Notes: generated by a model from the sequence alone, not told the origin. 37,696 nucleotides of DNA from Opitutia bacterium (GCA_002694035.1 NZKY01000063.1:14259-51954), one strand, 5' to 3'. Shown: positions 8,552 to 31,476, counted from the stretch's first letter. Translations and numbers: made by a program.

Positions 8552-8580
8552 CGCATGCGCACGGATGCGCGTGCGGTTTT
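8552..8580 (+). terminator. Intrinsic terminator after the BASS transporter gene
   Basis: The arms CGCATGCGC (8552-8560) and GCGCGTGCG (8567-8575) pair over nine positions with one G-U wobble around a six-base loop, then GTTTTC follows. In this AT-rich DNA the stem is strikingly GC-rich. It lies 40 bases after the transporter stop and before the flagellin genes, so it would insulate the two. The U-tract is short (four). Confidence 0.6.
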
Positions 8581-8624
8581 CAAACCTGCACACTAAATTT
8601 GCATGGAGGCATTTTTCATATCTT

Positions 8625-9416: not shown

Positions 9417-9421
9417 AAAAA

Positions 9422-10777: not shown

Positions 10778-10790
10778 TAAAATCTTGCCA

Positions 10791-12260: not shown

Positions 12261-12311
12261 AATTATTCCTTGTCACTTGCGGAAATCATAAATGGTTATT
12301 AATTTTATTTT

Positions 12312-12842
12312 GTGTCTGATTTAAAAGGTTTACCACCACACATTTTAAAACCTCAAACGCATTGGGAACGGGCCAAAGGATATTCAGAGTTATGCATGTA
12401 TGATTTTGCCCTCAGGGAATTACGTGCGATTCCCGAGGATGAAATATGGACAAAAAAGGTCACAATCTTGACTTTGAGTATTTATCAGGAATTAGAAAAT
12501 TGGGCGGAAGCACAAAAATATGCTCGTAATTTAAGATATGAATTTTCAGAAGAAGTTGATTGGTGGATAGCGGATGCATATGCCACTAGAAGGTGCGAAT
12601 CAATAACAGCGGCCCGTTCGATTTTACTGGAAGGTTTAGTTTTGCATTACGAAGATGCTTTAATACGCTACAATTTAGCCTGTTATGCATGCGTTTTAAA
12701 GAGTCCGGGGGAATGTATGGATTTTTTAAAAGAGGCGGTTAGAAGAGATGAAAAGTTTAAACTGATGGCAATTGAGGATGAGGATTTGATCGAGGTTAGA
12801 GATGCCTTAATAAATTTAGGATGGGGAAAAGCATTGGTGTAA
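12312..12842 (+). CDS. TPR-repeat protein
   Basis: The 176-residue protein is nearly all alpha-helical with TPR-like helix pairs: HWERAKGYSELCMYDFALRE, then YQELENWAEAQKYARNLR, ALIRYNLACYACVLKSPGEC and FLKEAVRRDEKFKLMAIEDE. The last part resembles TPR proteins of PVC bacteria that end in a 'D-x-D-L' helix. There is no signal peptide. The start is GTG (12312); no ATG lies earlier in frame. Its last 22 bases overlap the start of the pseudopilin gene, so the two are translationally linked. It probably works as an adaptor or chaperone; its place behind three flagellin genes makes an appendage-related role a reasonable guess, not a demonstrated one. Confidence 0.72.
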   Translation: MSDLKGLPPHILKPQTHWERAKGYSELCMYDFALRELRAIPEDEIWTKKVTILTLSIYQELENWAEAQKYARNLRYEFSEEVDWWIADAYATRRCESITAARSILLEGLVLHYEDALIRYNLACYACVLKSPGECMDFLKEAVRRDEKFKLMAIEDEDLIEVRDALINLGWGKALV

Positions 12843-13396
12843 CTAAGAATTTGAGAGCTTTTACGCTTGTAGAATTGCTCGTAGTCCTGGCAATTTTTGG
12901 GGTTCTTATTGGCATTATGTTTAAAGGTTATTTTTATGTAATTAACCAGCAGGCGTATAAACAAGCCAAAGTAGAAATTGAAGCTTTAAAGCTTTCTGTT
13001 GAGGATTACAGAAGATCATTTGGAGGGTATCCAATTTGTCCACAAAATGTGTGCACACCTGGTGAATGTCTTTTTTTGTCTTTGGCGGGTTTTCACAATG
13101 AGAGGGGAACTTTGGAAATGCCTCCTTACCCCGCGACTATTTCCACCGATTTATTTGGTTATGATCTAAATTCATATGATATTTCTGAAGTGCCTGATAT
13201 TTCTCATAACGATGGGAAATCCTTAATGTTTTGGCTATCCAAGATGCTTGGGAAAGACGTCGCATTTCTAGATCCCTGGGGAAATGAATATATTTACGAA
13301 TATCCACTAGAAGAGGGCGGGCCAGGCTTTCGTCTTTTTTCAGCAGGGCCAGATGGAAAAACTGGGAAAGATTGGAGTGCTGATGATGTTAATTAG
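12821..13396 (+). CDS. Type II secretion/type IV pilus pseudopilin (GspG-like)
   Basis: The 191-residue protein has a class III (prepilin) signal: a short basic leader ending in NLRA, then FTLVELLVVLAIFGVLIGIM with the conserved Glu at position 5 of the mature chain. Cleavage would be after Ala13 rather than the classical glycine, a variant seen in PVC pilins. The globular part resembles GspG-type major pseudopilins: KVEIEALKLSVEDYRRSFGGYP, DPWGNEYIYEYP and FRLFSAGPDGKTGKDWSADD, the last matching the calcium-binding 'DGxxGTxDD' loop of GspG. An unusual cysteine-bearing stretch CPQNVCTPGEC lies in the middle. The ATG lies inside the end of the TPR gene. The other secretion genes are not in this window. 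Confidence 0.85.
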   Translation: MGKSIGVTKNLRAFTLVELLVVLAIFGVLIGIMFKGYFYVINQQAYKQAKVEIEALKLSVEDYRRSFGGYPICPQNVCTPGECLFLSLAGFHNERGTLEMPPYPATISTDLFGYDLNSYDISEVPDISHNDGKSLMFWLSKMLGKDVAFLDPWGNEYIYEYPLEEGGPGFRLFSAGPDGKTGKDWSADDVN

Positions 13397-15848: not shown

Positions 15849-17777
15849 ATGGTTATTAGGATTTTGTCCATAATTCTGTATGCGTTCTTTACATTAGAAT
15901 GTTTATCTTCTAATTATCCCTTTCGGACTTGGACTTCCAAAACGGGAGTAAAAATTGAAGCACGTTTTATAGAGACATCAGGAGATCAGTTGACGATTGA
16001 AAGAAGTGATTACAAGAAATTTGTTTTTCCTCTAGCTTTACTCTCTAATGAAGATCAAATTTATGTCAGAGGTACATTAAAAAGCCTTTCTCAAACTCAA
16101 ACATATTCTAAGCAATCTCAAACGCCTTTATCATCATCTGAAGCCCTTCCTATTTGGAGTCCTGCGATTATTTCAAATTGGTGGCAGGAAAATGCACAGA
16201 ACGATTGGTCTAAAGCCTCTGATAGACTAATTGAAAATTTGAGGGATATCTGGGTTAACAAAGAAAAAAGATCTGCAAGAGAAGGTCGTGATTTTTTTTC
16301 CTGGTTTGATCATTGGCGGTGGCTTGATTTGATGAATCAGTTACGGGAAAAAGGAGGGGGTGAGAGTCTAAGTACTGTTTTTGTTAAAATTGGAAGCAAT
16401 CCAGAATTGAGAAAAATTTTCTTAAACGCCTTACACCCTGAAGATAATCAAGTAGCTGCACTATATATTTTTCTTTCAATCGCAAAAGATCATCCGGAGC
16501 TCGTTGAACAATACGGATCCCTTGCAGTCGCATATTCTGTGGTTTTCGATCAACCATTTCCACGAACATGGCCCCATCATCAAGTAGCCAGAAACGATGT
16601 GCCTTTTGATTCTGCTTTACCTAGTTCAAGGTTTGCAGAAATGGTAAATGCTCATAAAAGTAGGCAATTGGAATATGATCCTACTCAGTTATCCGTAACA
16701 GAACTAAAATTTGTGGTTGATCATCGTCTTCCCAAAAGTGAGCTCGACTGGGCTCGCGAAAGTGTAAAGTTGAGGAGAGCAAGCTTTGATAAGATTTTCT
16801 CATCGATAAAATATGACCGGCCAAGACTAGAGGGTGGAATTTTTAGATGGCCATACGGTGATTACTCGCTTGGTTCAATTAAAGAAAAAGGGGGAATTTG
16901 TGTGGATCAGGCTTACTTTAGTTCGATGGCTGGCAAGGCAAAAGGAATACCCACACTTACTTTTGTTGGCCAAGGTAGCGGTGGGGGCCATGCATGGTTT
17001 GGATTTTTAAAAAATCCAGGCCGTTGGGAAACGGATTGCGGAAGATATGAGAATCAAAATTATCCGGTGGGTAATGCAATCGATCCGCAGAGGTGGAAAT
17101 TAATTACGGATGATGAGTTGGGGGCACTGGCCCGTGGAGAAAAAAACCTTACCGGTTTTCGTGGAAAAGCTGTAGATTATTTTGCTTGGGCTCAAGCTAA
17201 TCCAAAAGCAAACTTCTATCGAGAATCTTTGCAACGTGCTCGTACTTTGCATCCTGCTTATATCGAAGTGTGGAAAGAAGAGGCAAATTGGGTGAAAAAC
17301 AACATTTCTGATTTGAGGGAAAAAAGAAATTTCTGGGACGCATGGTTGAAAGCATTTTCAAATACAGTCGATCTCAAGATTGAAGGGCAAAAAAACCTCG
17401 CCGATGTTTATGATGAAATGGGCAATCCAAGACAGGCTGATCGAATTCGTTCTTTGATTGTTAAGCAAAATCGTTCAGGCAGGTTTGATTTAGCGATTAA
17501 AGAGGGTGCTGAACAAGTAATGAATCTTGTATCGGCAAAAAATTGGACAAGTGCAGAAAAAGCCTATGAACGGATGGTAAGAGATTTTGAAAAAACTGCT
17601 GGAGGAGAATTATACTATGGTTTGATTAGACCTTATGTTGAAAAACTTGTAAGTATGGATCAAAAAAAACAAGCTCTTGATGCGATCGAGTACTTGAAAA
17701 AAAGAAAAGTTTTGGATTTAGGTCCGGGAAGTATTATTGCTCTTGAAATGGATAAACTGATCGGGCAGATCAACTAA
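15849..17777 (+). CDS. Exported SHD1-like / transglutaminase-core protein
   Basis: The 642-residue protein starts with a signal peptide (ILSIILYAFFTLECLS). Residues about 25-75 match the SLA1-homology-1-like domain common in PVC exported proteins (FRTWTSKTGVKIEARFIETS, then FVFPLALLSNEDQIYVRGTL). Residues about 330-400 contain a transglutaminase-like core: EKGGICVDQAYFSSMAGKAK with Cys351, GGGHAWFGF with His381, and RWETDCGRY with Asp396, the expected Cys-His-Asp order. The C-terminal third is TPR-like helices. The family may act as a peptidase or peptide cross-linker; the substrate is unknown. ATG follows AAGAGG with no spacer. Its stop overlaps the stop of the WD40-cytochrome gene by four bases. 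It is divergent from the protease fusion gene, about 180 bases away. Confidence 0.82.
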   Translation: MVIRILSIILYAFFTLECLSSNYPFRTWTSKTGVKIEARFIETSGDQLTIERSDYKKFVFPLALLSNEDQIYVRGTLKSLSQTQTYSKQSQTPLSSSEALPIWSPAIISNWWQENAQNDWSKASDRLIENLRDIWVNKEKRSAREGRDFFSWFDHWRWLDLMNQLREKGGGESLSTVFVKIGSNPELRKIFLNALHPEDNQVAALYIFLSIAKDHPELVEQYGSLAVAYSVVFDQPFPRTWPHHQVARNDVPFDSALPSSRFAEMVNAHKSRQLEYDPTQLSVTELKFVVDHRLPKSELDWARESVKLRRASFDKIFSSIKYDRPRLEGGIFRWPYGDYSLGSIKEKGGICVDQAYFSSMAGKAKGIPTLTFVGQGSGGGHAWFGFLKNPGRWETDCGRYENQNYPVGNAIDPQRWKLITDDELGALARGEKNLTGFRGKAVDYFAWAQANPKANFYRESLQRARTLHPAYIEVWKEEANWVKNNISDLREKRNFWDAWLKAFSNTVDLKIEGQKNLADVYDEMGNPRQADRIRSLIVKQNRSGRFDLAIKEGAEQVMNLVSAKNWTSAEKAYERMVRDFEKTAGGELYYGLIRPYVEKLVSMDQKKQALDAIEYLKKRKVLDLGPGSIIALEMDKLIGQIN

Positions 17778-20674
17778 TTGTTAATTGCCAAAAGTTTAGT
17801 GTATTTCGAAAAAAGTTCGTTGGTCAATTTTAACTGCGATTCTATTTTTGCAAGCATTGATCTATGTTCTTTTTCAACATTTAAATATTCTTCAGAGGCT
17901 CTTTTGAATAATTGATTTTTTTCTTCCAACAGTTTGGGGATGGTTTCCTTCAATTTAAGAATTTCCTGATGGCTTTTCTCGGCATTCTGAACTGCTTGTT
18001 TTGCAAGAATTATTTCTTCCTGTTTTGCAGCGAGTTCATTTTGGGTTTCAATAAGATCTTTTTTAAAAAGTTCCAATGATTCAGCCAGTTTTACATTTGC
18101 ATCCTGTAAAGTACTTTCGGGCTTTAGGGTCTCAGAGAATTTTTTTGAAGATTCGGCAATAGAATTAAATTCTGCTATGAAGGATTTTTTTCTTTCTAAT
18201 AATTGAATGACGGAAACATGATTTTTTTCCGCTGTAACAACAGAATTTTTGCTTTGATCTATAACTGTCTTACTTTTGGCAATTTTATTGGGTAGTAGTC
18301 GTAAAGACTCCCGAGTATTATTCAATTCATTAAGGGCTTGAATTTTGGTTTCTTTTGCATCCTGTAAAAGGGTAGTCAAATCTTCCATTTCGTTCTGAAG
18401 GAGATCTAGATTTTTGATCTGAGTATGTCTTTCAACATTAATTAATTCAGCTTTCCATTGTTCTATATCTTTTTGCACTTCTTCAATTTCCCTGCTGGCC
18501 TTTGCTACCAGCATAGAGGGTTGTTTTATTACCTCTTGGCATTGAGCCAAAAGAGTTTTGTTTTTTTCAAAAATGCTTTTGCTTTGATCACGTTTGCTAG
18601 TTATGGAGGATTGTTGATTTTGAAATTGGCTTAAATTTGATTTTGTTTGAGAAAGTAATTTTGTAATGGTGACTAAATCTTCTTGAGCACCATTCAATGC
18701 TTCAGAGGCATTTTCGGATTGTAATTTAAGCGATTTTTTTTCGGCAATTAAATTGTCTGTTTCAGCTTTATGGTTCGCAGAATGTCGGGAGGCATCATCA
18801 GATTTTTTCTTTATTTCATCAAAAGCAAGTTTTGCTTTTTTTGCTGCATCGGCCAAGGAGAGATCACTTTTGTTCTGATCAGAAAGTTGTTTTGCTTTGC
18901 TTAAGGAATCTTTTAACAAGCTCAATTGTTTAGAGTATTTGTTTGATAGATCATTCCACTTTTTGGATTCTTGATTGCTCTTGGCGAAGGAATCTTGGTT
19001 GACAGCAATTTTCGCTAAAATTTTCTGATGGGTCTCGCTCTTTGCTTTTTTAATGTTTGTTTTGTTATTGAAGTCGTTTGTAGTCTTAAGGAGTTCTTGC
19101 TTTGCAGCCATAATCTTGGCTGTCGAATCTTGTAAGTTTTTTTCATCGGCGTCTAGATTTGCCTTACTTAATTCCAAGGCTTTAGTCAGTTTGTCTCTTT
19201 TTTGCTGGAGTGGTAAAAGTGCATTCTGATGTTCTTTTAGGGAGGATTGTATTGTAGCGAGATGATTTTCAGAAAGTAAAATTCTTTTTTCAATGGTGGG
19301 TGGGTTTGCAATTAAATCACCCAAGTGTTTGCCGTCTGATGAATTCCATAAACCGACTTTTCCAGTCCAGTCTCCAGCAATGATTTTGGAGCCATCATGA
19401 GAAAGTCTGGATTCCATAACGATATCGGTAAAACCTGAAATCGTTCGTAGAGCTTTTCCATTACCATCCCAAAATTTTACTGTTTTATCCCTTCCCGCTG
19501 TGACAATGTTTCCGTTTTGAGCAAAATGAGCGGAGAGAGTTCCTCCGCTATGGGCATTCCAAGTTCGTATTTGCTTACCATTTATCATTTCCCAGGTTCT
19601 AACCGCACCTTCCTCGGATGCTGAAAGTAAAACATTTCCATCAGCACGCCAACTTAGACTGGTTATTTCCTGCTTGTGTCCGTCTAACGTGTAAAAAGGG
19701 TTACCTGTGCGAGCTTCCCATACGAAAAGTCCGCCATTTCGATCAGCTGTGGCCAGGAGGATACCGTCAGGAGAAAATGCAACTTGAGTAACCCACTCAG
19801 AGTGTTTTTTAATCTTGTAGAGGATTTCATCAGTAGCTAAGTCAAAAACCTTGATTAATTTGTTGGTTCCTCCAATAACGACAAGGGATTGGTCGGCTGA
19901 TAAGTCAGCAGTAAGTATGCTATCCTGTTCTTCTCCAACGGTTAGGACTCTTTTTCCAGTTTCAATATCCCAACCGGCTACATTTCCACTTTTTCCACCG
20001 CGTCCACCAGAGGCAATCACAAGTTTCCCATTTCGGCTAAATTTCATCGATTCAATAAAACCCTCTTCGTATGGGAGGATTCCAGAAATTTTAAGTGTTT
20101 CTGTGTTGTACAGAATAACTTGTTTTTGACCTGATAACGCAACCAAAGGTGCCCATGGAGATGCCGCCATGGCAGAGGGAGCAAATGCACGTTCTGTAAC
20201 GAGGAAAGGCTCGAGATTCAGGTGCTTGGGCATGGGTGGTGGTCCCGTAGGCTTACCAATGGAAGCTCCGCTTAGAGCAAGATTAACGGATGATTTCTTT
20301 TTCTTCATTGGTTTACCCGAAGCAGTAGGAAGCATACCCTGAGCAATCCAGTTTTTAATCAAAAGAAGTTGAGACTTTTCAATTTTCTCACCCCTTGGCG
20401 GCATATGAGGTTCCTGTAGTCTAGCAGGGAGGAGATAAAGTAAACTGCCATCAGGATCTCCCGGTAGTGAAACTTCGCCCGAACTGCCTCCGGCAATAAT
20501 TCCATTAATGCTAGTAAGATCGAGTCCCCCACGAGATCGATCTGGGTTATGACAGGAATTACACGATTGTTCAAAAATGGGAATAATATCGTCCTGAAAG
20601 TTTGGTTTCTCAGGAGACGCGATTGCAAAAGCACTAAATAGGGCAAAGAACCAAATGTGTTGTAAGAATTTCAT
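17774..20674 (-). CDS. Exported cytochrome c / WD40 / long coiled-coil protein
   Basis: The 966-residue protein has a signal peptide (IWFFALFSAFAIAS), then a planctomycete-type cytochrome domain at about 25-115 (heme motif CNSCH at 38-42, distal ligand region PHMPP with Met91). Residues about 155-455 are WD40 repeats, for example GHKQEITSLSWRADGNVLLS and SAHFAQNGNIVTAGRDKTVK. Residues about 465-960 are almost continuous coiled coil rich in lysine, glutamate and alanine, which is an unusually long rod. The layout, heme domain plus propeller plus rod, is known in PVC exported proteins, but no biochemical role has been shown. It is the last gene of the four-gene unit, following the DUF1549/DUF1553 gene by 49 bases. 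The start is ATG. Confidence 0.88.
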   Translation of the reverse strand: MKFLQHIWFFALFSAFAIASPEKPNFQDDIIPIFEQSCNSCHNPDRSRGGLDLTSINGIIAGGSSGEVSLPGDPDGSLLYLLPARLQEPHMPPRGEKIEKSQLLLIKNWIAQGMLPTASGKPMKKKKSSVNLALSGASIGKPTGPPPMPKHLNLEPFLVTERAFAPSAMAASPWAPLVALSGQKQVILYNTETLKISGILPYEEGFIESMKFSRNGKLVIASGGRGGKSGNVAGWDIETGKRVLTVGEEQDSILTADLSADQSLVVIGGTNKLIKVFDLATDEILYKIKKHSEWVTQVAFSPDGILLATADRNGGLFVWEARTGNPFYTLDGHKQEITSLSWRADGNVLLSASEEGAVRTWEMINGKQIRTWNAHSGGTLSAHFAQNGNIVTAGRDKTVKFWDGNGKALRTISGFTDIVMESRLSHDGSKIIAGDWTGKVGLWNSSDGKHLGDLIANPPTIEKRILLSENHLATIQSSLKEHQNALLPLQQKRDKLTKALELSKANLDADEKNLQDSTAKIMAAKQELLKTTNDFNNKTNIKKAKSETHQKILAKIAVNQDSFAKSNQESKKWNDLSNKYSKQLSLLKDSLSKAKQLSDQNKSDLSLADAAKKAKLAFDEIKKKSDDASRHSANHKAETDNLIAEKKSLKLQSENASEALNGAQEDLVTITKLLSQTKSNLSQFQNQQSSITSKRDQSKSIFEKNKTLLAQCQEVIKQPSMLVAKASREIEEVQKDIEQWKAELINVERHTQIKNLDLLQNEMEDLTTLLQDAKETKIQALNELNNTRESLRLLPNKIAKSKTVIDQSKNSVVTAEKNHVSVIQLLERKKSFIAEFNSIAESSKKFSETLKPESTLQDANVKLAESLELFKKDLIETQNELAAKQEEIILAKQAVQNAEKSHQEILKLKETIPKLLEEKNQLFKRASEEYLNVEKEHRSMLAKIESQLKLTNELFSKYTKLLAINN

Positions 20675-20723
20675 GAATGAAACTACATTTCTAGAAGATT
20701 ATTGGCGTTTCTCAACGCAATGT

Positions 20724-23591
20724 TTAGTGATTGAAAATAAATTCCTTGGAATTCAGTAGAGCCCAAAAAACATCTTCCAAACCTTCTCGTGGATTACTCA
20801 TATCCAAAGATGCCAATAGGTTTGCTTTCTCTGCCTCACGCGGTTTTCGCGAATAACAACGAAGATAGAGCTCGTCGATAATTTGATCTGGCTTTTTCCC
20901 TTCTTTCAGGCTGGTATCCACAACTTTCCCCTGTTTAATCCGGTTGTTTGTGGTGTCACCGTTTAAAAGATGCAAAGCCTGCGACAAACTTGGTTCCATT
21001 ACCACTTCACAGGAGCAAACAGTCTCTCTTTTTGCTCTGCCAAATGTAGTGAGAAAATAATTACTTACACGGCCGTCTGCGATTTGAATTGCTTTGGCAC
21101 CCAGGGGTAATCCCTGAAATTTATTTTTGGTTGAGGTTGCCTGTGAAATAACATCGAGCATGACTTCGGCACGTAAGCGGCGAAGGTGAGATCTTGCGAA
21201 GTTTCGTGTGTCTGATTCATTCGATACATTCGTCTTGGTTGAAAGTTGATAAATTCTTGAATTGCAAACATCTCGAACCAACTTTTTGAAGTCATAATTA
21301 TATTCGGTGAATTTTTTGGATAGTTCATCTAAAAGTTCAGGGTTGGAGGGGGGATTTGAAACCCGAACATCATCAACTGGTTCGATGATTCCTTGTCCGA
21401 AGAAATGTGCCCATACCAAGTTGGCCAAGTTTCTAGCAAAGAATGGATTTTGTGGAGAAGCAAGCCAATCAGCCAGAACTTCTCGGCGATCCGCACCACG
21501 AGGGATTTCTGGGGTGTCATCCCCAAGGAACTTTGGGGGCATGGGTTTTTTGTGTACAGGATGATTAATCTCTCCGCTTCTCCGGTTATAAATAATATTT
21601 TCGCGGGGATCGGCCCCTCTTTTGCGACCTACCTGGCTGAAGAAAGAGGCAAAAGAATAGTATTCATCCTGGGTCCAACGGTCAAACGGGTGATTGTGAC
21701 ACTGTGCACACTGTAGGCGCATTCCCATAAAGACCTGAGCAACATTTTCAGTAATTTTCAGGTTGTCCCTTTCCACTTGGTAGTAATTGGTAGCGGGATT
21801 GGTGAAGGTGCCTCCTTTGGAAGTGAGTAAATCCTTTACGATTTGATCCATAGGAACATTATTAGCAATACGGTCTTTAAGCCAATTGAAGTAGAGTAGG
21901 GTGGCTTTGTAACTCATCCCCTGGTTGTCATCAGTCTGAATTTGGAGAAGTTCGGCAAATTTCATTACCCATAACTCTGTAAATTCTTTCCTCTCCAGTA
22001 ATTGATCAATCAGTTTTGATCTTTTATCTGTTGATGTGTCGGCAAGAAATGCAGCTGATTCTTCGACCGTGGGCAAGAGACCAGTGATATCAAGGTACAG
22101 ACGTCTAACAAACACTTCGTCGGTACAAAGTTCTGATGGAGTCATGCGAAGTTTGTGCAATTTATTGTGCACATGAGTATCAACATAATTGTTGGCAGGT
22201 AGTTGAGGCCGTTCATATTTAAGATCCTCCGGTATGACCACCATGGGGACTCCTACTGTAAAGATGTTAAACCGGGCCATCATGAAAGCCTCACCCCGTG
22301 AGCCCGCAGTAACTAATCCTTTTTCATCGACTGCAGCAGATACATCATTACTGGATTGAAATACAGTCAGAGGAGTAACATCCCTAGTCGTACCATCGGA
22401 GTAGTGTGCGAGCACGCTTAATTGTTGAGTGGCACCTTCACCTTCGAGAAGGGCTGATGGTGGGAAAAGTTCGATCTTTGTTGGCTTTGCTATGTTTTCA
22501 GGATCTTTGTGTGCACCGTCTTTTAACCAATCAACCAAGGTGTGCCAGTGTTTGCTGTGCTTGCTGAATAATTTTCCTCCAGTATGTGGAACCGTTCCAA
22601 TAGCCTTTTCCACGAGCATACTTTCCTCGGGTACTGCAAGATTTATGCGTCGAGTTCCCTGCTCCCTAGTTATGCGATAGTGATCTCCTTCAGGATCATA
22701 TCCAAAAAGGGAAAGCATAAAACGGTCTTGCCCACGGGCGGAACCGTGACATGAACCGGTATTACAACCTGCTTTCATGAAAACCGGCATTACATCAAGC
22801 TTGAAACTTACAGGTCGTGGCGTAGTTGGTTCTGAGACTTGAACGGGTACTTCGACCCTCTTACCCATGAATTCAGCAATAAGTTTGGTTTCACCTTCCT
22901 GCTTCGGATATAGAATGCGGTCCTTAAAATCAACAATAGCTGAGTTTTCAAGCCAAACGGACGACTCAAAAGTAACATCGCGTGTTACATCATCAGAGTA
23001 AGTGGCAGTGAGAACAATGGAATTGAAGTCTTCCTCAGTATTAAGGTTTATGGCGGATGGATAAGCTTCAAGGGAAACAAATTGCTTGTTCCTTGCTTTG
23101 GTGCGAAGAACAAGTTCACGTTCCGTAATTTCTTTAAGTTGTATACCCTTTGGCCAGTTTGCGCCGGTTTCAATCCAGCGATCGAGAATGTCTTTTTGCT
23201 GAGCGGAGAGGGGGCCGTTTTTTGGTGGCATGATTTCATCATCATCTGCCGGAAGGTGAATTCTTTCGAGGAGAATACTTTCAATTTTGTTCCCCGGCAC
23301 CAGGGCAGGTCCGGAATCTCCGCCTTCCTTGGCAAAAGCGAGAGTATCCAATCGTAAGCCTCCTTTTTGATCATCGGTACCGTGACAGCTTATGCAGGTA
23401 CTCTCCAATACTGCCCTGACTTCGGTATGAAAGTCAGGAGCTTTCACTACTGGTTTGGGTGGAGTAGCAGGTGGGCTTGGCTGAGCAGGGGGTGTTGCTG
23501 GGGGAACTGGAGTAACCACGGGGGGAGTCTGTTTATCCTGATTGGCCCAAATGAAGGATGCAGAAAGTAGAATGTAAAAAACAAGTTTCAT
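20724..23591 (-). CDS. Exported cytochrome c-type protein with DUF1549 and DUF1553 (PSD1) domains
   Basis: The 955-residue protein follows the planctomycete 'PSCyt1-PSCyt2-PSD1' order. A signal peptide and proline-rich linker (residues about 20-50) precede a heme motif CISCH at 66-70 with a distal MPP motif. Ig-like segments follow. A second, wider motif CNTGSCHG lies before DUF1549, and CAQCHNHPFD lies at its end. DUF1553 fills the C-terminal quarter (ADWLASPQNPFFARNLANLV, then GRAKRETVCSCEVVMEPSLS). It can therefore hold up to three hemes. Such proteins are exported and usually paired with DUF1501 proteins, as here. Redox or polymer-processing roles are suggested in the literature but not established. 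It starts seven bases after the PPC gene ends, which indicates coupling. Confidence 0.92.
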   Translation of the reverse strand: MKLVFYILLSASFIWANQDKQTPPVVTPVPPATPPAQPSPPATPPKPVVKAPDFHTEVRAVLESTCISCHGTDDQKGGLRLDTLAFAKEGGDSGPALVPGNKIESILLERIHLPADDDEIMPPKNGPLSAQQKDILDRWIETGANWPKGIQLKEITERELVLRTKARNKQFVSLEAYPSAINLNTEEDFNSIVLTATYSDDVTRDVTFESSVWLENSAIVDFKDRILYPKQEGETKLIAEFMGKRVEVPVQVSEPTTPRPVSFKLDVMPVFMKAGCNTGSCHGSARGQDRFMLSLFGYDPEGDHYRITREQGTRRINLAVPEESMLVEKAIGTVPHTGGKLFSKHSKHWHTLVDWLKDGAHKDPENIAKPTKIELFPPSALLEGEGATQQLSVLAHYSDGTTRDVTPLTVFQSSNDVSAAVDEKGLVTAGSRGEAFMMARFNIFTVGVPMVVIPEDLKYERPQLPANNYVDTHVHNKLHKLRMTPSELCTDEVFVRRLYLDITGLLPTVEESAAFLADTSTDKRSKLIDQLLERKEFTELWVMKFAELLQIQTDDNQGMSYKATLLYFNWLKDRIANNVPMDQIVKDLLTSKGGTFTNPATNYYQVERDNLKITENVAQVFMGMRLQCAQCHNHPFDRWTQDEYYSFASFFSQVGRKRGADPRENIIYNRRSGEINHPVHKKPMPPKFLGDDTPEIPRGADRREVLADWLASPQNPFFARNLANLVWAHFFGQGIIEPVDDVRVSNPPSNPELLDELSKKFTEYNYDFKKLVRDVCNSRIYQLSTKTNVSNESDTRNFARSHLRRLRAEVMLDVISQATSTKNKFQGLPLGAKAIQIADGRVSNYFLTTFGRAKRETVCSCEVVMEPSLSQALHLLNGDTTNNRIKQGKVVDTSLKEGKKPDQIIDELYLRCYSRKPREAEKANLLASLDMSNPREGLEDVFWALLNSKEFIFNH

Positions 23592-23598
23592 AACAAGG

Positions 23599-26028
23599 TT
23601 AATTGGTACCTCCTTGAGCAGCTAAGCGCAATTGTTCGAGCCTGCTCAGTGGCTTATCTTTTTTAACGATAGGTTTGGGGGCAGAAGGTTTAGGTTTTGC
23701 TGCAACAGCCTTCGGTTTTGGAGGGGGATTATCCATACGGATTTGTCCACCCTGTCCTACAGTATGCGTAACTAAGTTTTTTGAAAATGGCACCCTGACG
23801 AAACAGAACAAATTCTTGGTCAATCCAGCACGTGCTTTTTCTTCGGTGGTAATGGGGAAACTAATCTGTGAAGTATTTGAATCAAATTCAACCTGTTTGG
23901 TAATAGCAAAAGGAGGAAGACCTTTGAGTTCTGCTTTAGCTAAACCCTTAAAAGGTCGAGTAATATCAAGATCACAAATCATTTCACCTTCTTGTCCTCG
24001 TTGAATAGCCGCCATGTTTATTTTCATTGAAAGGTACGGTTCTTCAACTTTTAACTTAATAAATTCTGAAGCTGCCAGCATATTGCCTCCTCCATTTGCT
24101 GGGGATTCACCTTGTACTCCGATTTCCCATTCACCCAAAGGAGTTCCATTATTGGCGGTAAGAGGATAATAACCAGTAGTATCTTTAGCTAAAATTTTGA
24201 TATTGCTTTTTGCCCCAATTCCAGGAGGACGAGTGAGAATTTTAACGACAACATCCTTGGTGAAATTTGCGTCACGGATAACTTCTACTTTCAGGTTTAT
24301 GGAGCCTCCTTTAACAATGGGAGTTGCGGGAGTGTGCAATTTTACCCTGAATGGGACCGGTTCGACAACCGCCACTGGGAGAACATCGTAGGTACCTTCA
24401 TAGTATGTTCGATTATTTGGAGGACCATAGACTAAATCCACGCGATGCCGATAATTTCCACTGATAGTTACATTACTGTCGGGTTTCTTGTGATTGATGT
24501 CAATTTTGGTTAAGGTTTCACTAAGTGGTGCATCAGGCTTTGCAGAAAATAGGACGGGGACGGAGGTAAAATTGGATGGTGCTTTGGGTGCATGCATGGT
24601 TACACCTTCAGGTAAATTTTGAGCTATAAAATCAAGATCACCTGAGAAGTTACGTCGGGTGATGGTGAAACTGGTGGCGGCAAAGTTTCCGCGGGGGACT
24701 GGAATCATTTGACGGGTCTGGGAGTCACGGTTGCCAAACATCGGAATAGAAGCGGTTATTTCAGGTTCAAGTTTTTCAGTCTCAATGCGGTAGGCATGCA
24801 GGGGGCTCCCTCTTCCAAGGTGGTCTGTTATTCGTAAAATATATTCGCCATCCCTTGGGAAGGTTTGAGTAATTAAACTGTCTGGACCGTTACTGGCATC
24901 ATCATTTCCACGGATCGATTTTCCGTCCCCGTAGTATAGATTAAGGACTGGATCAAGGGGTGAAGCTACAGATCGGGCGTGTGCCTTGATGTAATAACGG
25001 TCTCCTTTTTTTGCCTGAAAACGGAAGCAGTCAATATCGCCGTCTTCCTGAATAACCCCGTCAAATGCGAGTGGAATTGAAAGTTCTGTTTTGGTAGCGA
25101 TACTAGAGCTGTTATTGGGTTCCACTTCCGAAATTGCGGGAAATTTTGAAATCCGGATATTGTTGGGACTAGGGGCACGCAGACCGTTTTCCTCGTGATG
25201 ATAGGCCAAGATTTCCTTTCCATTATTCGGTAAGGTAATCGTCTGTTTGAAAGGCCCTTTGGGATCTCCGAGAAAAGTAAATTCAATTGGCTTGCCTGCC
25301 TCTCCTCCTGCAGGGATTACAACTAATGGTCGTGGGAAGGAACCAATGTGCAACCGGTAGCGATAAGAACCGTTCCCTCGATAAGAAGATTCCCTGACCT
25401 CGATGTAATACTTTCCTGTTTTTGGTGCAATCACACTTGTAGTTGAGTCCTGTAGTAAGAGTTCGGAATCGTCCGATGTCGCAATTTCGAAACGATTTTC
25501 GTCAAGAATTGCTATATAGGGATCGAACAAAGGACCGGAGAGTCGGATTGCCTCGACTTCCGCACTGATACGTTGCCCTTGAGTGGCATTAATTTCGAAA
25601 TAGTCTACATCTTCATTTTGGGCCACCCCGTTAACAGTGACATTCAGAGGAATAATCTGAGCTTCATCTAGGGCAGAATTTGGCTCTGATTCAGATTCAT
25701 TAGGGAATGGACCCACCCAAAAAGTAAAGAGTTTACTGATTCCATTTTTTGTTCGAAGACGTAGTTCATGTTGTCCGATTTTCGCGTCATCAGAAATAAC
25801 AAATTTCGCAGATAGTTTAGTTTCTTTTTCTTCAATTATTTCAATTGCGGAAATTCCCTTGTCATAAAAGAAGATTTCCTCCGCACCCTTTAGACGTTGC
25901 CCGGTAATTACGATCTCTTGGGTTGACCCAAGTTGTCCGCCACGCGGAAGAAGTGAGGAAATTAAAGGTTCTGTAGCACCAACTTGGCTTAAAATAATAA
26001 AAAGAAAAGGGAATAATTTATTAATCAT
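23599..26028 (-). CDS. Exported PPC-domain protein with beta-sandwich repeats
   Basis: The 809-residue protein has a signal peptide (LFPFLFIILSQVGA), an IPT/TIG-like start (SSLLPRGGQLGSTQEIVITG) and two pre-peptidase C-terminal (PPC) modules. The first shows SEPNSALDEAQ, VDYFEINATQGQ and GKYYIEVRESS; the second shows EVEPNNSSSIATKTE, DIDCFRFQAKKGDRY and GEYILRITDH. The C-terminal half is further beta-sandwich, ending in a proline/lysine-rich tail (KPKPSAPKPIVKKDKP). PPC modules are secretion or adhesion helpers in exported hydrolases. No catalytic domain is visible, so this is a surface or periplasmic binding partner. It sits between the DUF1501 gene and the DUF1549/1553 gene, as in similar sets of PVC genomes. 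The start is ATG. Confidence 0.85.
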   Translation of the reverse strand: MINKLFPFLFIILSQVGATEPLISSLLPRGGQLGSTQEIVITGQRLKGAEEIFFYDKGISAIEIIEEKETKLSAKFVISDDAKIGQHELRLRTKNGISKLFTFWVGPFPNESESEPNSALDEAQIIPLNVTVNGVAQNEDVDYFEINATQGQRISAEVEAIRLSGPLFDPYIAILDENRFEIATSDDSELLLQDSTTSVIAPKTGKYYIEVRESSYRGNGSYRYRLHIGSFPRPLVVIPAGGEAGKPIEFTFLGDPKGPFKQTITLPNNGKEILAYHHEENGLRAPSPNNIRISKFPAISEVEPNNSSSIATKTELSIPLAFDGVIQEDGDIDCFRFQAKKGDRYYIKAHARSVASPLDPVLNLYYGDGKSIRGNDDASNGPDSLITQTFPRDGEYILRITDHLGRGSPLHAYRIETEKLEPEITASIPMFGNRDSQTRQMIPVPRGNFAATSFTITRRNFSGDLDFIAQNLPEGVTMHAPKAPSNFTSVPVLFSAKPDAPLSETLTKIDINHKKPDSNVTISGNYRHRVDLVYGPPNNRTYYEGTYDVLPVAVVEPVPFRVKLHTPATPIVKGGSINLKVEVIRDANFTKDVVVKILTRPPGIGAKSNIKILAKDTTGYYPLTANNGTPLGEWEIGVQGESPANGGGNMLAASEFIKLKVEEPYLSMKINMAAIQRGQEGEMICDLDITRPFKGLAKAELKGLPPFAITKQVEFDSNTSQISFPITTEEKARAGLTKNLFCFVRVPFSKNLVTHTVGQGGQIRMDNPPPKPKAVAAKPKPSAPKPIVKKDKPLSRLEQLRLAAQGGTN

Positions 26029-26047
26029 GTTTAAAGTAAATTACATA

Positions 26048-26086
26048 AAAACCTCCCCAAAAGTGTTTTTCTTTTGAGAAGGTTTT
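26048..26086 (-). terminator. Terminator or attenuator between the DUF1501 and PPC genes
   Basis: In the minus-strand RNA a 15-base arm (AAAACCTTCTCAAAA, 26086-26072) pairs with TTTTGGGGAGGTTTT (26062-26048). The stem is complete with two G-U wobbles, the loop has nine bases, and the run of U continues for one more base. Read on the plus strand the two wobbles become mismatches, so the signal points to minus-strand transcription. It lies between the DUF1501 stop and the PPC start, and would lower expression of the three downstream genes or end the first transcript. Confidence 0.65.
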
Positions 26087-26102
26087 AAAAAAAGATTGTT
26101 GA

Positions 26103-27422
26103 TTAAACGCAGAGTTCTTTAATGACTTTACCGCCGTCCACTATTTCCATGGGGCGATCGCCTGGAGCCATTAATTCTTTGTCAGCCACAATTCCGATTC
26201 TGTCGTAAACTGTGGTAGCAAGGTCTTCAACAGAAAGAGGATTATCTTCCGGTGCGGTGGCAAATGCATCAGATGCACCGTAGACCTGACCGCGAGTAAT
26301 TCCGCCTCCAGCAAGGGCCACACTAAAAACGCGAGGGTAGTGGTCTCTACCACTGTCTTTATTGATTTTTGGAGTGCGTCCAAATTCAGAAGAAAGCATA
26401 ACAAGAGTGCTGTCTAGGAGTCCTCTTTCATCAAGATCAGATATCAAAGATGCATATGCTTTATCAAGTTCAGGCCCTTGTCTATTGAAACCAGCCTCAA
26501 TATTTTGGTGCATGTCCCAACCTCCATAAGTTAGAGAAACAAATCGAACACCAGACTCGACAAGGCGACGAGCTAATAGCATGCGCTGACCGGCTTGGTT
26601 CTTGCCGTATCTTTCTTTCACTTTTTCAGGTTCTTTTCTCATGTCGAAGGCTTCACGAGCTTCCTTAGAACTAATTAAAGAATAGGCGTCATTGTAAAAT
26701 TTGTCCATAGCACCCAAGGCATCGGAAGACTCAATTTGACGGAAATGATCATCAACTGTGTCAAGCAAGCTACGGCGTTTTGAAAATCGGTCGTTATCTA
26801 TTTCTTTTGGCAAGGAAAGATCACGAACTTTAAAATTTTCTTGTGCAGGATCTGAACCTAAACCAAAAGGGCCGTATGAAGAACTTAAATATCCGCTTCC
26901 TGCAAATTCATTAGGAACATTTGGAACACAAACATATGGAGGTAAGTTCTTTCTTGATCCATATTCATGAGAAACCACAGATCCAAAACTTGGGAATTTG
27001 ATTGCAGGGCTCGGTTTGTATCCGGTGAACATATTGTGCGTGCCGCGCTCATGTGCAGCTTCGCCATGTGTCATTGACCGACAAACCGTAATTTTGTCTG
27101 CAATTTTCGCAGTCTCCTTAAAGTTTTCGCTGAAATGAACACCAGGTATCTTTGTTTTAATGCTCTTAAAAGGCCCTCTGTATTCTAAAGGAGCATATGG
27201 TTTAGGATCAAAAGACTCCTGATGCGCCATTCCTCCAGGTAAATAGATATGTATTACACTTTTAGCCGGACCCTCTACAGTTTCGTAGTACTTCTGAGCA
27301 CCATGTGCTTTAATTCTCATGAAATCCGCGAGGGTTAGACCTAGTCCCCCAACCAGTCCAACATGCATAAATTCACGACGAGAAAAATGTTTAGGTAATT
27401 CTAGGCATTTCTGTTTGTTCAT
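26103..27422 (-). CDS. DUF1501 protein with a Tat-type signal
   Basis: The 439-residue protein begins with FSRREFMHVGLVGGLGLTLA, a twin-arginine (SRRxFM) signal, so it is probably exported folded. The body is the DUF1501 fold, a relative of alkaline phosphatase/sulfatase: IHIYLPGGMAHQESFDPK, MTHGEAAHERGTHNMFTG, VSLTYGGWDMHQN and SSEFGRTPKINKDSGRDHYP. These supply the histidines and aspartates expected for a metal centre. The reaction is not established. I use the ATG at 27422; a TTG two codons earlier is possible. It is the first gene of the minus-strand unit and is divergent from the RHH-like gene at 27603, with paired palindromes in the control region. Confidence 0.93.
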   Translation of the reverse strand: MNKQKCLELPKHFSRREFMHVGLVGGLGLTLADFMRIKAHGAQKYYETVEGPAKSVIHIYLPGGMAHQESFDPKPYAPLEYRGPFKSIKTKIPGVHFSENFKETAKIADKITVCRSMTHGEAAHERGTHNMFTGYKPSPAIKFPSFGSVVSHEYGSRKNLPPYVCVPNVPNEFAGSGYLSSSYGPFGLGSDPAQENFKVRDLSLPKEIDNDRFSKRRSLLDTVDDHFRQIESSDALGAMDKFYNDAYSLISSKEAREAFDMRKEPEKVKERYGKNQAGQRMLLARRLVESGVRFVSLTYGGWDMHQNIEAGFNRQGPELDKAYASLISDLDERGLLDSTLVMLSSEFGRTPKINKDSGRDHYPRVFSVALAGGGITRGQVYGASDAFATAPEDNPLSVEDLATTVYDRIGIVADKELMAPGDRPMEIVDGGKVIKELCV

Positions 27423-27507
27423 AGGCAATAATGATTATGAAATTTATACTACAATGATTAAATATCCAAACAAGCATGAATTTACCCATAAAAATTAAAA
27501 AAAAATA

Positions 27508-27522
27508 TATTGCAGTGCAATA
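27508..27522. promoter_or_regulatory. Candidate operator 1
   Basis: TATTGCAGTGCAATA is palindromic except for its central base, with arms TATTGCA and TGCAATA around a G. A second copy differing at two positions lies 58 bases further on. Both lie in the divergent control region between the DUF1501 gene and the RHH-like gene. This is the usual arrangement for a self-regulated small DNA-binding protein, but binding is inferred only. Confidence 0.45.
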
Positions 27523-27565: not shown

Positions 27566-27580
27566 TATTGCAATGTAATA
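27566..27580. promoter_or_regulatory. Candidate operator 2
   Basis: TATTGCAATGTAATA matches the first site at 13 of 15 positions and contains the perfect palindrome ATTGCAAT. It ends 22 bases before the GTG start of the RHH-like gene, a place where a bound protein would block transcription or translation. Confidence 0.42.
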
Positions 27581-27602: not shown

Positions 27603-27860
27603 GTGCCAAAAGGAAAAACAATCACTATTCGAGTATCGGAGGATACGGTGGAGGAAATTAAAGGAGTTTGTTCGAATTTAGGGGATAGTTACAACTTCAA
27701 CCAATTTGTTAATCAGAGTCTATCAGCAATTTTGGAGGTCATAAATCATGACGGAGAATCAGTGCCGATTCCCAAATTTGCAATGATGGCAAGGTTGATG
27801 AGAAATTACGAGGAGTCAGTTTTTGAAAATGGGGGAATGAATAATGGCGGAAAAGGATAA
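27603..27860 (+). CDS. Small ribbon-helix-helix-like DNA-binding protein
   Basis: The 85-residue protein starts MPKGKTITIRVSEDTVEEIK, a beta strand followed by a helix, then a turn and a second helix (YNFNQFVNQSLSAILEVI), the layout of ribbon-helix-helix (MetJ/Arc/CopG) regulators, whose dimers read the major groove with the strand. The C-terminal half is a short, less ordered extension ending NGGMNNGGKG. The start is GTG; no ATG lies closer. The last 17 bases overlap the start of the channel gene, so the two proteins are translationally coupled. Two near-palindromic sites just upstream fit autoregulation. An alternative reading as a non-DNA-binding small protein cannot be excluded. Confidence 0.65.
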   Translation: MPKGKTITIRVSEDTVEEIKGVCSNLGDSYNFNQFVNQSLSAILEVINHDGESVPIPKFAMMARLMRNYEESVFENGGMNNGGKG

Positions 27861-29403
27861 AGTATCGGTTAAAAACAAAGTTCCAGCAATTTATTTGCTC
27901 TCTAGATTGTGGATTCCGGTTTCGGTATTCTTTTTTTTCCTGGCTTCGATTTTTAGCAGGGATGAACTGATGGTTCATTTTTTAGGAAATGCATCCCAAG
28001 TTATCCATCAGATTATAAATTACGGAAGCCAAATCGGACTTTGGATGTCGTCTGCATTTTTGGTCCAGAGAATGACGACTGTATTTGTATGGGATGGCTT
28101 AATTGCAGGGATTTCTGGTCGATCCGTGCCAAGGTTACCCAAAGATGTTACTGGCTTGTGTATTTTTGGTGTCGCGGTGATAGGAATTGTGGCAACTGTT
28201 TTTGATAAATCTGTAACTGGTATCTGGGCAACTTCCGGGGTAGTCAGTATAGTTATTGGAATAGCCTTAAGAAATGTAATCCTAGATGTTTTTATTGGAT
28301 TGTCGATGCATGTTGAGAAACCGTTCAGGATAGGTGACTGGGTAATGGTCCATCAAAACAGAAGGGAAAATCATATCGTTGGGCAGGTCATTGAAGTCAA
28401 TTGGCGAACAACCCGCTTGAAGACAACCCAGAAAAATATGGTCGTTATTCCAAACAGTAGGATGGGCGAGGCAATTTTAACAAATTACATGGAGCCGAAA
28501 CCTCATTTTAGAATCGAACTGTCTTTCATTCTGGATTACAGCGTTTCCCCGAATCGAGCGATTCGCATTCTTTCATCTGGAGTTAAGTCGCTTGCGGATG
28601 ATAAACACATATTATCAGATCCTGCCCCCGAAATTAGGTTAGATCAAGCCGTTCCCAATGGGCAGAAATATGAAGTACGCTTCTTCATATTACCAATAAA
28701 TATAAGCCCAAAAGAATCAAAGCATATTGTAAATAAAAGTATTTTAGAACACCTAGCACAAGCTGGGTTGAGTCCTTCGATGGAAAAAGAGACAGTATTT
28801 ATAAACAAAAGCGCAAAATTGCCCTTAGTGCCTTCAGTTTTAAGTGAGAACTTTGATGAAGTAATTAACAGTAGTAAACTAATGGATGTTCTTAAAGAAA
28901 ATGAGCTTAAAGGACTTTTTCAGGATTCAAAGATGAGCGAAGTTAAGGCTGGTGAAATTCTTTACAGGCAAGGGAATTTAGGGGATGCATTTTATTTTTT
29001 GGCTGAAGGACTATTATGTTCCTCAATTGATCTACCGAGAGAACCCATGAGCATAAAAATAGAACATTTCGGTCCTGGATCTCATTTTGGGGTAGAAGGT
29101 GTCTTAAGTGAAAAAATCCGATTTTCCACGGTTATGGCAATTACTGACTGTATTATTTTCTTAATTGATAAAAAAATTGTTATCGAGCTTACGAAAAAAA
29201 ATCCGAAATTTTATGATTTCTTAAAAGAAAAAATGATGCTCGGACAAGAGAAAATTATTAAAACGAAGTGGGGGCAGAAACAAAAGCAGCATTCCTTTTC
29301 AAAAGGCAAAAAAAGGAGTAAGATGGGATCAGCTATTCAAACTTTATTTACTGAATTTTTACCTTCTGCCAGCCCAACATCAAATGTTGAAAATTCAAAA
29401 TAA
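27844..29403 (+). CDS. MscS-type channel with a cyclic-nucleotide-binding-like domain (bCNG type)
   Basis: The 519-residue protein has about four membrane segments in residues 18-150. The MscS pore helix and beta domain follow: IGIALRNVILDVFIGLSMHV and EKPFRIGDWVMVHQNRREN, with GQVIEVNWRTTRLKTTQKNM and VVIPNSRMGEAILTNY in the beta domain. Residues about 350-460 form a CRP-like cyclic-nucleotide-binding domain (AGEILYRQGNLGDAFYFLAE), so the protein resembles bCNG channels, MscS relatives with C-terminal cyclic-nucleotide domains. In the binding cassette Arg426 is kept, but the usual glutamate after FG is Val417. Ligand binding is therefore uncertain. The C-terminal tail is lysine-rich. It is the middle gene of a three-gene unit, overlapping the RHH-like gene and six bases before the secretin gene. 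It is predicted to be an inner-membrane protein. Confidence 0.88.
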   Translation: MAEKDKVSVKNKVPAIYLLSRLWIPVSVFFFFLASIFSRDELMVHFLGNASQVIHQIINYGSQIGLWMSSAFLVQRMTTVFVWDGLIAGISGRSVPRLPKDVTGLCIFGVAVIGIVATVFDKSVTGIWATSGVVSIVIGIALRNVILDVFIGLSMHVEKPFRIGDWVMVHQNRRENHIVGQVIEVNWRTTRLKTTQKNMVVIPNSRMGEAILTNYMEPKPHFRIELSFILDYSVSPNRAIRILSSGVKSLADDKHILSDPAPEIRLDQAVPNGQKYEVRFFILPINISPKESKHIVNKSILEHLAQAGLSPSMEKETVFINKSAKLPLVPSVLSENFDEVINSSKLMDVLKENELKGLFQDSKMSEVKAGEILYRQGNLGDAFYFLAEGLLCSSIDLPREPMSIKIEHFGPGSHFGVEGVLSEKIRFSTVMAITDCIIFLIDKKIVIELTKKNPKFYDFLKEKMMLGQEKIIKTKWGQKQKQHSFSKGKKRSKMGSAIQTLFTEFLPSASPTSNVENSK

Positions 29404-29409
29404 AAAATT

Positions 29410-31476
29410 ATGAGTAGTTACAAAAAATTTATTTCTTCATTTTTTTGTTTCCTAATAATCGTTTCAAATCCTTTGGGTAATTTTGGTCAGACTGAAACAG
29501 GTGAAGTTAAAATGGTATCCGAAAGAATTAGGCTTAGTTATGTGGATCCCCTTCGTTGCTCTAAATTACTCAATTTCTATGGTGTGAATATAGGTGAACC
29601 TGAGAAACCTGTAGACATTACAAAACTTCCTGTAGTGGTTGCTTTACCTCAGACAAATTTTCATGAAACAATTCCCGATCATGCTTCCGTTTTTCCTCAA
29701 ACTGAGACGGATCCTATTAATGAGTTGATGCTTTTTTATGACATGAACCATCCGGAAAAGGCTGGGCAGGTTCGTCAGATTATTTCCGAGCAAATTGATC
29801 TTCCTGCCCGTAAAATTATGATCGAAGCAATGGTTTTGGAAATATCTTCTATGGCCTTGGACCAGCTTGGAGTGGAGTGGGACTTTAATAGTGGTGCAGA
29901 GGGGATTTCAGAAAATAATTTTGTGCAAAAAAAATTGGACGGAGCAAATGATAGTTTGGTTTTAGGAAGAATCGCGTACCCGACCCCGGGTTCCGGTCAA
30001 CTTGAAGCTACGGTAACTAATGTATTTCGTGAGTTTAATATTAGATTACAAGCTTTAGTTGAAGATGGATCTGCCCAAGTTCTTTCAAGACCAAGTGTCT
30101 TAACTCTGGATAATCGAATGGCCTACATAAATGTTTCTGAAAAAATTCCCATTGCGAATACAAAATTTGTAAAGGATTATGTGAGTGCCGTTGATTTTCG
30201 TGATGTTGTTGCGGGGATCCAGCTTGCGGTTCGTCCAAGGATAAACAATTCTGGGACCGAGGTTTCTTTGCAAATTAATGCAGCAGTTTCAGCTCGTGTT
30301 CCGGGGAAGGATCAACAGGTTTTAGGCAAAGATTCAGTTGTGCTGGCTACAGCACCAACTCTTTCAATAAGGGAAGTTAAGACATATGCGAGAATTGCTA
30401 ATGAAACTCCATTTATTGTTGGAGGTTTGATCGCAAAAGATTCGGAAGAAAGCGTTAAAAAAGTACCTTTATTGGGTGATATTCCATTTCTTGGTAGTTT
30501 ATTTCGTTCCAAAAATGAAACAGGTCAAAAAAGGGAAGTTATTATTGTTATAACTCCTTCAGTACTTCCCGATGAAAGCCCTGTTCATGCAGGCATGCCA
30601 AAAGATGACGATTTATTCGACCAATTTGGCCATAGATTATTCCGAGATGCCTACAGAATTCGGGCTGAGGATACATTTGATCTAAGGTATTTGACTGAGA
30701 ATAAAGGATTAAAGCAATTACAGGTAGTTGCCGATCGAGTTGTCACGGATCATCCTCATTTATTTGATCAATATCCTTATAATAAATTCGCTAAGCAATC
30801 GGTGCCAGGTGAGGATGCTCTGGTTCGAAGACAAATTTATGAAGTTCTTAAACGTCAGAAAGCCTCGGAAGTACTTGATAATGAGAAGTTAATTTTTTTT
30901 GAACGAAATGAGAAAGTGGGATCGGGCTTTAAGGTTAGATTTTTGGTTGAATATCTGGAAGAAAATGCACCTTTTGTCTTACAAAAGAAAGATAGCGGGA
31001 AAGCATTTGGATTGTGTTTTAGGCTGAAAAGAAATTCGATGGAAATAAAACAACTCTTGGAAGAACCCGTTCCAGAGTTAAAGATCGTTGACTGTCCTGA
31101 TACTAAAACATGGCGCTCTTTACTTTTAGAGTCCAATAAAAATAAGATTGGTGCTTATCCAAAGCAGGTTATTTTTTTAAGAAACTTATCCGATTTAACC
31201 CGGCTTAAAAATGCTATTTTGATGAAGAAAATTATTTCTTTGAATGCATCTGATTATATTTTGAAATTGAAAAATTTTACCCGGGGAAGATTAATTCGAA
31301 TGCCAACAGTTCGGGAAAACGATGTTGAGTTAATTGATGCTGATGTTGCAACTTGTTATTACCATTCAGAACTATATTACTCAGTCTTAGAGCAATCCCT
31401 CGCACATGATTATTCAGCTTTTAAGAAACTTCTGGATGGTACGGTTTACGGTGAGGGGTTAATCCAAGCAAAATAA
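29410..31476 (+). CDS. Secretin-family outer-membrane protein with a long C-terminal extension
   Basis: The 688-residue protein has a signal peptide (FISSFFCFLIIVSNPLGNFG) and a short N-domain. The secretin core runs from about 130 to 388: LPARKIMIEAMVLEISSMAL, LQALVEDGSAQVLSRPSVLT, DFRDVVAGIQLAVRP, TPFIVGGLIAKDSEE and VPLLGDIPFLGSLFR (352-366), the last being the secretin signature. Secretins form 12- to 15-fold outer-membrane gates for type II/III secretion or type IV pili. Beyond residue 390 there are about 300 extra residues, which I do not recognise as a standard S-domain; they open with DQFGHRLFRDAYRIRAEDTF, a segment I associate with PVC secretins. Full N0-N1-N2 domains are missing. 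It is the last gene of the RHH-channel-secretin unit. Confidence 0.85.
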   Translation: MSSYKKFISSFFCFLIIVSNPLGNFGQTETGEVKMVSERIRLSYVDPLRCSKLLNFYGVNIGEPEKPVDITKLPVVVALPQTNFHETIPDHASVFPQTETDPINELMLFYDMNHPEKAGQVRQIISEQIDLPARKIMIEAMVLEISSMALDQLGVEWDFNSGAEGISENNFVQKKLDGANDSLVLGRIAYPTPGSGQLEATVTNVFREFNIRLQALVEDGSAQVLSRPSVLTLDNRMAYINVSEKIPIANTKFVKDYVSAVDFRDVVAGIQLAVRPRINNSGTEVSLQINAAVSARVPGKDQQVLGKDSVVLATAPTLSIREVKTYARIANETPFIVGGLIAKDSEESVKKVPLLGDIPFLGSLFRSKNETGQKREVIIVITPSVLPDESPVHAGMPKDDDLFDQFGHRLFRDAYRIRAEDTFDLRYLTENKGLKQLQVVADRVVTDHPHLFDQYPYNKFAKQSVPGEDALVRRQIYEVLKRQKASEVLDNEKLIFFERNEKVGSGFKVRFLVEYLEENAPFVLQKKDSGKAFGLCFRLKRNSMEIKQLLEEPVPELKIVDCPDTKTWRSLLLESNKNKIGAYPKQVIFLRNLSDLTRLKNAILMKKIISLNASDYILKLKNFTRGRLIRMPTVRENDVELIDADVATCYYHSELYYSVLEQSLAHDYSAFKKLLDGTVYGEGLIQAK

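Follow-up and report, generated by a model that had tools for sequence, protein, structure and literature searches.

Secretins are known as the outer-membrane gates of pili, of type II and type III secretion systems and of phage extrusion, where they work with dedicated assembly machinery. Type I secretion systems and the resistance-nodulation-division (RND) tripartite exporters reach the outside by another route, with an ATP-binding cassette (ABC) or RND exporter, a HlyD-type adaptor and TolC. At the inner membrane, the bCNG channels are described, in a passage of PMC4560390 that cites Caldwell et al. 2010, as members of the MscS superfamily with a cyclic-nucleotide-binding (cNMP) domain. Here we analyse a 37,696-nucleotide stretch of DNA from an Opitutia bacterium (the window), in which three tightly packed genes at 27603-31476 (the trio) encode a small ribbon-helix-helix (RHH)-like protein, an MscS-superfamily channel and a secretin with a conserved C-terminal domain (CTD). 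Nearly all assessable secretins with this CTD are encoded beside, or in frame with, an inner-membrane transporter, which may be an MscS channel or an ABC exporter. We propose, giving the idea an even chance, that the trio forms an operon under its own control and encodes a unit for export or release across two membranes.

The linkage between secretin and transporter carries this proposal. A contig scan baited with the CTD picked up 80 loci in Verrucomicrobiota, Kiritimatiellota, Lentisphaerota and Planctomycetota, and the neighbourhood analysis covered 93 distinct CTD-secretin loci, 81 of them assessable and 12 cut by contig ends. An inner-membrane transporter is adjacent to the secretin or fused with it in 78 of the 81: an MscS channel in 47 (upstream in 38, downstream in 9) and an ABC exporter in 31 (upstream in 12, in frame in 19). 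No MscS or ABC neighbour turned up at any of 23 other secretin loci within flanks of ~1.5 kb a side. Gene order varies from locus to locus while adjacency is constant, and where the channel lies upstream it mostly overlaps the secretin gene by a short stretch, often 4 bases, or is separated from it by a few bases. The family is rare and patchy, occurring in 13 of 384 genomes in a class sample and 8 of 388 in a phylum sample. The trio is kept in four genomes of the same genus (G001, G027, G097, G121) and, despite different flanks, in two of another family (G037, G018), where the pair is intact and we did not find the secretin moved to pilus genes with the channel elsewhere. The first-pass annotation had paired an inner-membrane channel with an outer-membrane secretin; the pairing is real, and the RHH-channel-secretin order recurs across genera and families far beyond chance, but the description was too narrow, since in other loci an ABC exporter, frequently in one frame with the secretin, takes the channel's place. 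Of two irregular loci, an apparently missing channel in L127 proved to be a masked open reading frame (ORF), and a long N-terminal fusion in L161 (a 1300-aa ORF) looks like a start over-run in GC-rich DNA.

The exporter form shows how close the association can be. In 19 loci from planctomycetes, Lentisphaeria and some Verrucomicrobiota (L052, L104-L108, L113, L115, L117, L118, L121, L123, L124, L130-L133, L138 and L157), ABC_membrane, ABC_tran and Secretin domains share a single open frame, which spans 1269-1533 aa where members were scanned with Pfam. The exporter is MsbA-like, scoring under curated cut-offs, and 31 of 32 ABC matches contain both Walker A and Walker B motifs. Each of the 19 fused frames has, between the nucleotide-binding domain and the secretin, a hydrophobic segment and then an AxA-type site or a lipobox. 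A single frame therefore probably gives rise to both an inner-membrane exporter and a cleaved periplasmic or outer-membrane secretin, with signal peptidase as the predicted agent of the split. As in type I and RND tripartite systems, an inner-membrane exporter gene adjoins the gene for an outer-membrane exit. Unlike them, the CTD systems use a secretin rather than TolC, their MsbA-like exporter has no recognised peptidase domain, exporter and secretin often share one frame, and no adaptor gene was seen in most CTD-secretin loci; neither a TolC-family exit protein nor a HlyD-type adaptor was recognised among the window neighbours.

How might one partner have given way to the other? In a tree of 75 secretin sequences, those with an exporter as partner form a paraphyletic assemblage. 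The channel-upstream group branches from among the fused exporters, and the channel-downstream group of Sedimentisphaerales, whose channel is a different MscS type without a cNMP domain, forms a separate, fully supported group beside a fused set. Because these two channel-bearing groups arise separately within the exporter-partnered secretins, the tree suggests that a channel replaced an exporter at least twice independently, although the tree is a quick, midpoint-rooted one, the direction of replacement depends on its rooting, and the channel-downstream loci L161-L164, with a longer channel type, lie outside it.

The third trio gene (29410..31476, + strand, 688 aa) was correctly recognised as a secretin in the first-pass annotation (PF00263, 1.4e-39). 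A signal-peptide-like N-terminus, read from the sequence (residues ~1-27, 29410..29490), precedes a core (residues ~115-393, 29752..30588) that aligns to solved GspD and PilQ chains. The conserved C-terminal region (residues 376-688, 30535..31473) comprises the end of the core and then the CTD, which extends ~290 residues beyond the core. This region is conserved across 62 diverse sequences, in which 32 positions are invariant, core end included, and AF2 folds it confidently (pLDDT 85.7, pTM 0.82). We could not assign the CTD to a known domain: it has no Pfam match, apart from a weak match to an unrelated family in 1 of the 62 members, and no sequence relative in the PDB. Fold searches gave no clear match, the best being E 0.26 with Foldseek and Z 3.6 with VIA-align, the latter over residues ~122-222 only, which does not in itself prove a new fold.

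With GspD of the type II secretion system (T2SS) and PilQ of type IV pili (T4P), its closest solved structures, the trio secretin shares the core and the signal-peptide-like N-terminus. Unlike them, it scores below the curated cut-offs (176.4 of 351 bits for GspD, 133 of 284 bits for PilQ), has no match to Secretin_N (PF03958), of which the L060 secretin of the same genome has three, and carries the CTD in place of the usual tail. The loci differ as well, since an inner-membrane transporter gene adjoins the trio-type secretin and no ATPase, platform or pseudopilin gene is adjacent in the window, as the first-pass annotation had observed, or in related neighbourhoods. The core also matches phrog_1012 (3.9e-34), a likeness to pIV of filamentous phages. 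We rejected a prophage or inovirus remnant: the match reflects the generic secretin core, no phage genes were recognised nearby, and neither the window nor the related loci showed a recognisable pI ATPase or coat gene. Unlike pIV, the trio is a chromosomal operon, without recognised phage genes or assembly ATPase, that is conserved where flanks differ.

The second gene (27844..29403, + strand, 519 aa) encodes the channel, and its Pfam matches bear out the earlier reading of an inner-membrane MscS/cyclic-nucleotide channel: an MscS beta-domain at residues 144-215 (28273..28488; PF00924, MS_channel_2nd, 2.4e-15) and a C-terminal cNMP-binding domain at residues 366-452 (28939..29199; PF00027, 3e-13). 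The trio channel shares with bCNG the MscS pore and beta domains and the C-terminal cNMP domain; unlike bCNG, it is strictly paired with a secretin, and the window copy has Val in place of the ribose-site Glu found in 34 of the 41 channels compared. The phosphate-site Arg (Arg426 in the window copy) is kept in all 41. Cyclic nucleotides may be part of the control, a lead that draws on these pocket residues, on the genome's five class III cyclase domains, and on the class I cyclic-nucleotide phosphodiesterase gene that directly follows a paralogous CTD-secretin at L054:1527-2774 and L053:2030-3394 (genomes G027 and G131).

The first gene (27603..27860, + strand, GTG start) encodes a small RHH-like protein of 85 aa that is likely an autoregulator, judging from the DNA in front of it. 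Two operator-like palindromes precede the gene 58 bases apart, O1 (TATTGCAGTGCAATA, 27508..27522) with 0 mismatches to the consensus TATTGCANTGCAATA and O2 (TATTGCAATGTAATA, 27566..27580) with 1 mismatch, and at up to one mismatch these are the sole sites across the 2.88-Mb genome. Within 220 bases before the gene and at up to three mismatches, the palindrome is found in 20 of 22 RHH-like loci, which together hold 32 sites, compared with a mean of 0.6 and a maximum of 3 after shuffling; loci that lack the RHH-like gene showed no such site ahead of the channel. These counts support the conserved palindrome as a putative operator. The protein itself is less easily placed. An alignment of 19 RHH-like sequences has an invariant KTxTIRV...NFNQFVN, while Pfam gives no match for the window's protein; its low-confidence AF2 model (pLDDT 70.7) has an extended N-terminus, two helices and then a third; and the top fold match, insignificant at E 2.3, is the plasmid regulator Reg576, which we take to be an RHH protein. 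The first-pass annotation's small DNA-binding protein is thus favoured by the conserved operator-like palindrome at its own promoter, whereas the RHH-like label, having no Pfam match behind it, is only partly supported.

All three ORFs lie on the + strand, and their computed coordinates agree with the packing first noted, a 17-base overlap between the RHH-like and channel genes and a 6-base gap before the secretin. By names read from the sequence, the trio is flanked upstream by a DUF1501-like gene on the opposite strand and downstream by a sulfatase-like gene. The upstream side holds a minus-strand cluster (17774-27428) of large cytochrome/PSD-type and DUF1501-like genes that is syntenic across the genus and adjoins the trio in most Opitutia loci. 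The nearest pseudopilin, a T2SSG plus N_methyl gene at 12821-13396, is 14.2 kb from the trio, in line with the ~14 kb given earlier. It belongs to a tightly packed group at 8565-13396 with three tandem flagellin-like genes and a short gene without a Pfam match; no other flagellar genes were recognised in the window.

Several related loci have further neighbours of their own. An RND pump gene stands directly before the channel-secretin pair in three Verrucomicrobiales loci, identified as HlyD and AcrB by Pfam matches in L089 and by cluster membership in L088 and L090. One might have expected a TolC-type exit gene next to such a pump, and the presence of the pair there agrees, in this small sample, with an exit-pore role for the secretin. 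Near the Sedimentisphaerales secretin-channel pair, L139:4284-6482 encodes a protein in which hydrophobic segments separate a TAXI/NMT1-like solute-binding domain from a TrkA/RCK domain, and homologues occur in L127, L137 and L141. Downstream of exporter and secretin in L110, L114 and L122 (clusters c41-c43) lie large glycosyltransferase-methyltransferase proteins, a hint that the cargo of this lineage may be a glycan.

Our proposal for how such a unit would work begins with the RHH-like protein, which, on the pattern of sites, would bind both palindromes before its own gene and control the operon. Substrate, gating and any contact between the partners are inferred, the channel's part from what is general to its family. 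Membrane tension and/or a cyclic nucleotide would open the MscS-type channel and let solute pass from the cytoplasm to the periplasm, and the secretin would serve as the outer-membrane exit for its partner's cargo, with the CTD in place of the usual pilotin-binding tail. In relatives, an MsbA-like ABC exporter would serve the CTD-secretin instead of the channel. Because exporter substitutes for channel, the common design would be a CTD-secretin with an inner-membrane transporter that is either passive (MscS) or ATP-driven (ABC), and, read most simply, the system is a two-membrane unit whose inner-membrane half can be exchanged. Transfer may go via the periplasm, and a sealed conduit would not be required.

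Several observations weigh against this proposal. Being related, the 93 loci do not represent that many independent events, and three CTD-secretins (L140, L160, L165) have no MscS or ABC neighbour. Nucleotide gating may be lost in the window channel, since its ribose-site Glu is absent. Hydrophobic segments are few in the channel, which lacks a large periplasmic domain, and the N-terminal part of the trio secretin is short, with space for at most one small N-domain, which together make direct contact between the two doubtful.

Among other explanations, the partner might provide control rather than cargo, gating, energising or sensing for the secretin through tension, cyclic nucleotide or ATP while the cargo takes another route. 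The switchable nature of the partners (MscS, cNMP domain, ABC) suits this idea, as do the cyclase domains and the phosphodiesterase genes after paralogous secretins, but we consider it unlikely: no periplasm-facing signalling domain is present, the cNMP domain is absent from the Sedimentisphaerales channels, and ABC and non-cNMP MscS partners have transport activity alone in common.

A direct conduit, in which channel or exporter docks with the secretin through the CTD or an unknown adaptor as one continuous trans-envelope pore, is quite unlikely. It would account for the strict adjacency and the 19 in-frame fusions, which, if they stay uncut, would hold the secretin at the inner membrane, and it would employ a conserved CTD that has no assigned role. 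Against it stand the internal signal-peptidase motifs, which suggest that the fusions are cut, the missing periplasmic domain of the channel and the short N-terminal part of channel-type secretins. Subunit numbers also mismatch, MscS channels being heptamers, ABC exporters dimers and secretins 12-15-mers. The trans-envelope conduit first suggested for this locus is accordingly not well supported; the other suggestion made there, a system for solute release or sensing, is plausible.

Mislocalised secretins leak at the inner membrane, and the partner could relieve such damage or aid secretin insertion. In Verrucomicrobiales a Sel1/TPR protein follows the secretin (L084-L102, cluster c7), with a lipoprotein-like N-terminus in L088, and could be a pilotin; a pilotin-like neighbour would fit a role in assembly. 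Even so, this explanation is improbable, as the remaining secretins of the set lack neighbours of this kind and secretin-fused ABC exporters are unfit as a relief valve. That an ordinary pilus or T2SS secretin merely sits next to an osmotic channel is very improbable and is ruled out by conservation: the core does align best to T2SS GspD, but the pair is conserved in 47 loci of several families with different flanks, and the genome has separate T4P/T2SS secretins, one beside a PilM gene and one beside T2SSK, with two strong T2SSE/PilB-type ATPases and one shorter ATPase match on other contigs (ATPases on C21 and C136), so that the trio secretin is not the sole candidate for a pilus or T2SS.

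We return to the two-membrane unit. In the open-licence PubMed Central text searched we found no description of the secretin-transporter combination, of the in-frame exporter-secretin gene or of the CTD. Each part comes from a known superfamily, and there is a fair chance that the unit deserves a class of its own. With slightly less than even confidence, we suggest that it represents an undescribed two-membrane transport class of the Planctomycetota-Verrucomicrobiota-Chlamydiota (PVC) bacteria, built on a dedicated CTD-secretin family and an interchangeable partner, either an MscS channel gated by tension or ligand or an MsbA-like exporter made from the secretin's own frame, without pilus or secretion ATPase machinery. 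If so, a secretin family travelling with a channel or an ABC exporter would be a new kind of outer-membrane exit, and its loci would amount to a natural experiment that sets a channel against a pump on the same pore. It would also raise the question of how a solute released by a mechanosensitive channel leaves the periplasm, and the unique two-site operator would offer a simple handle on when the system is switched on.

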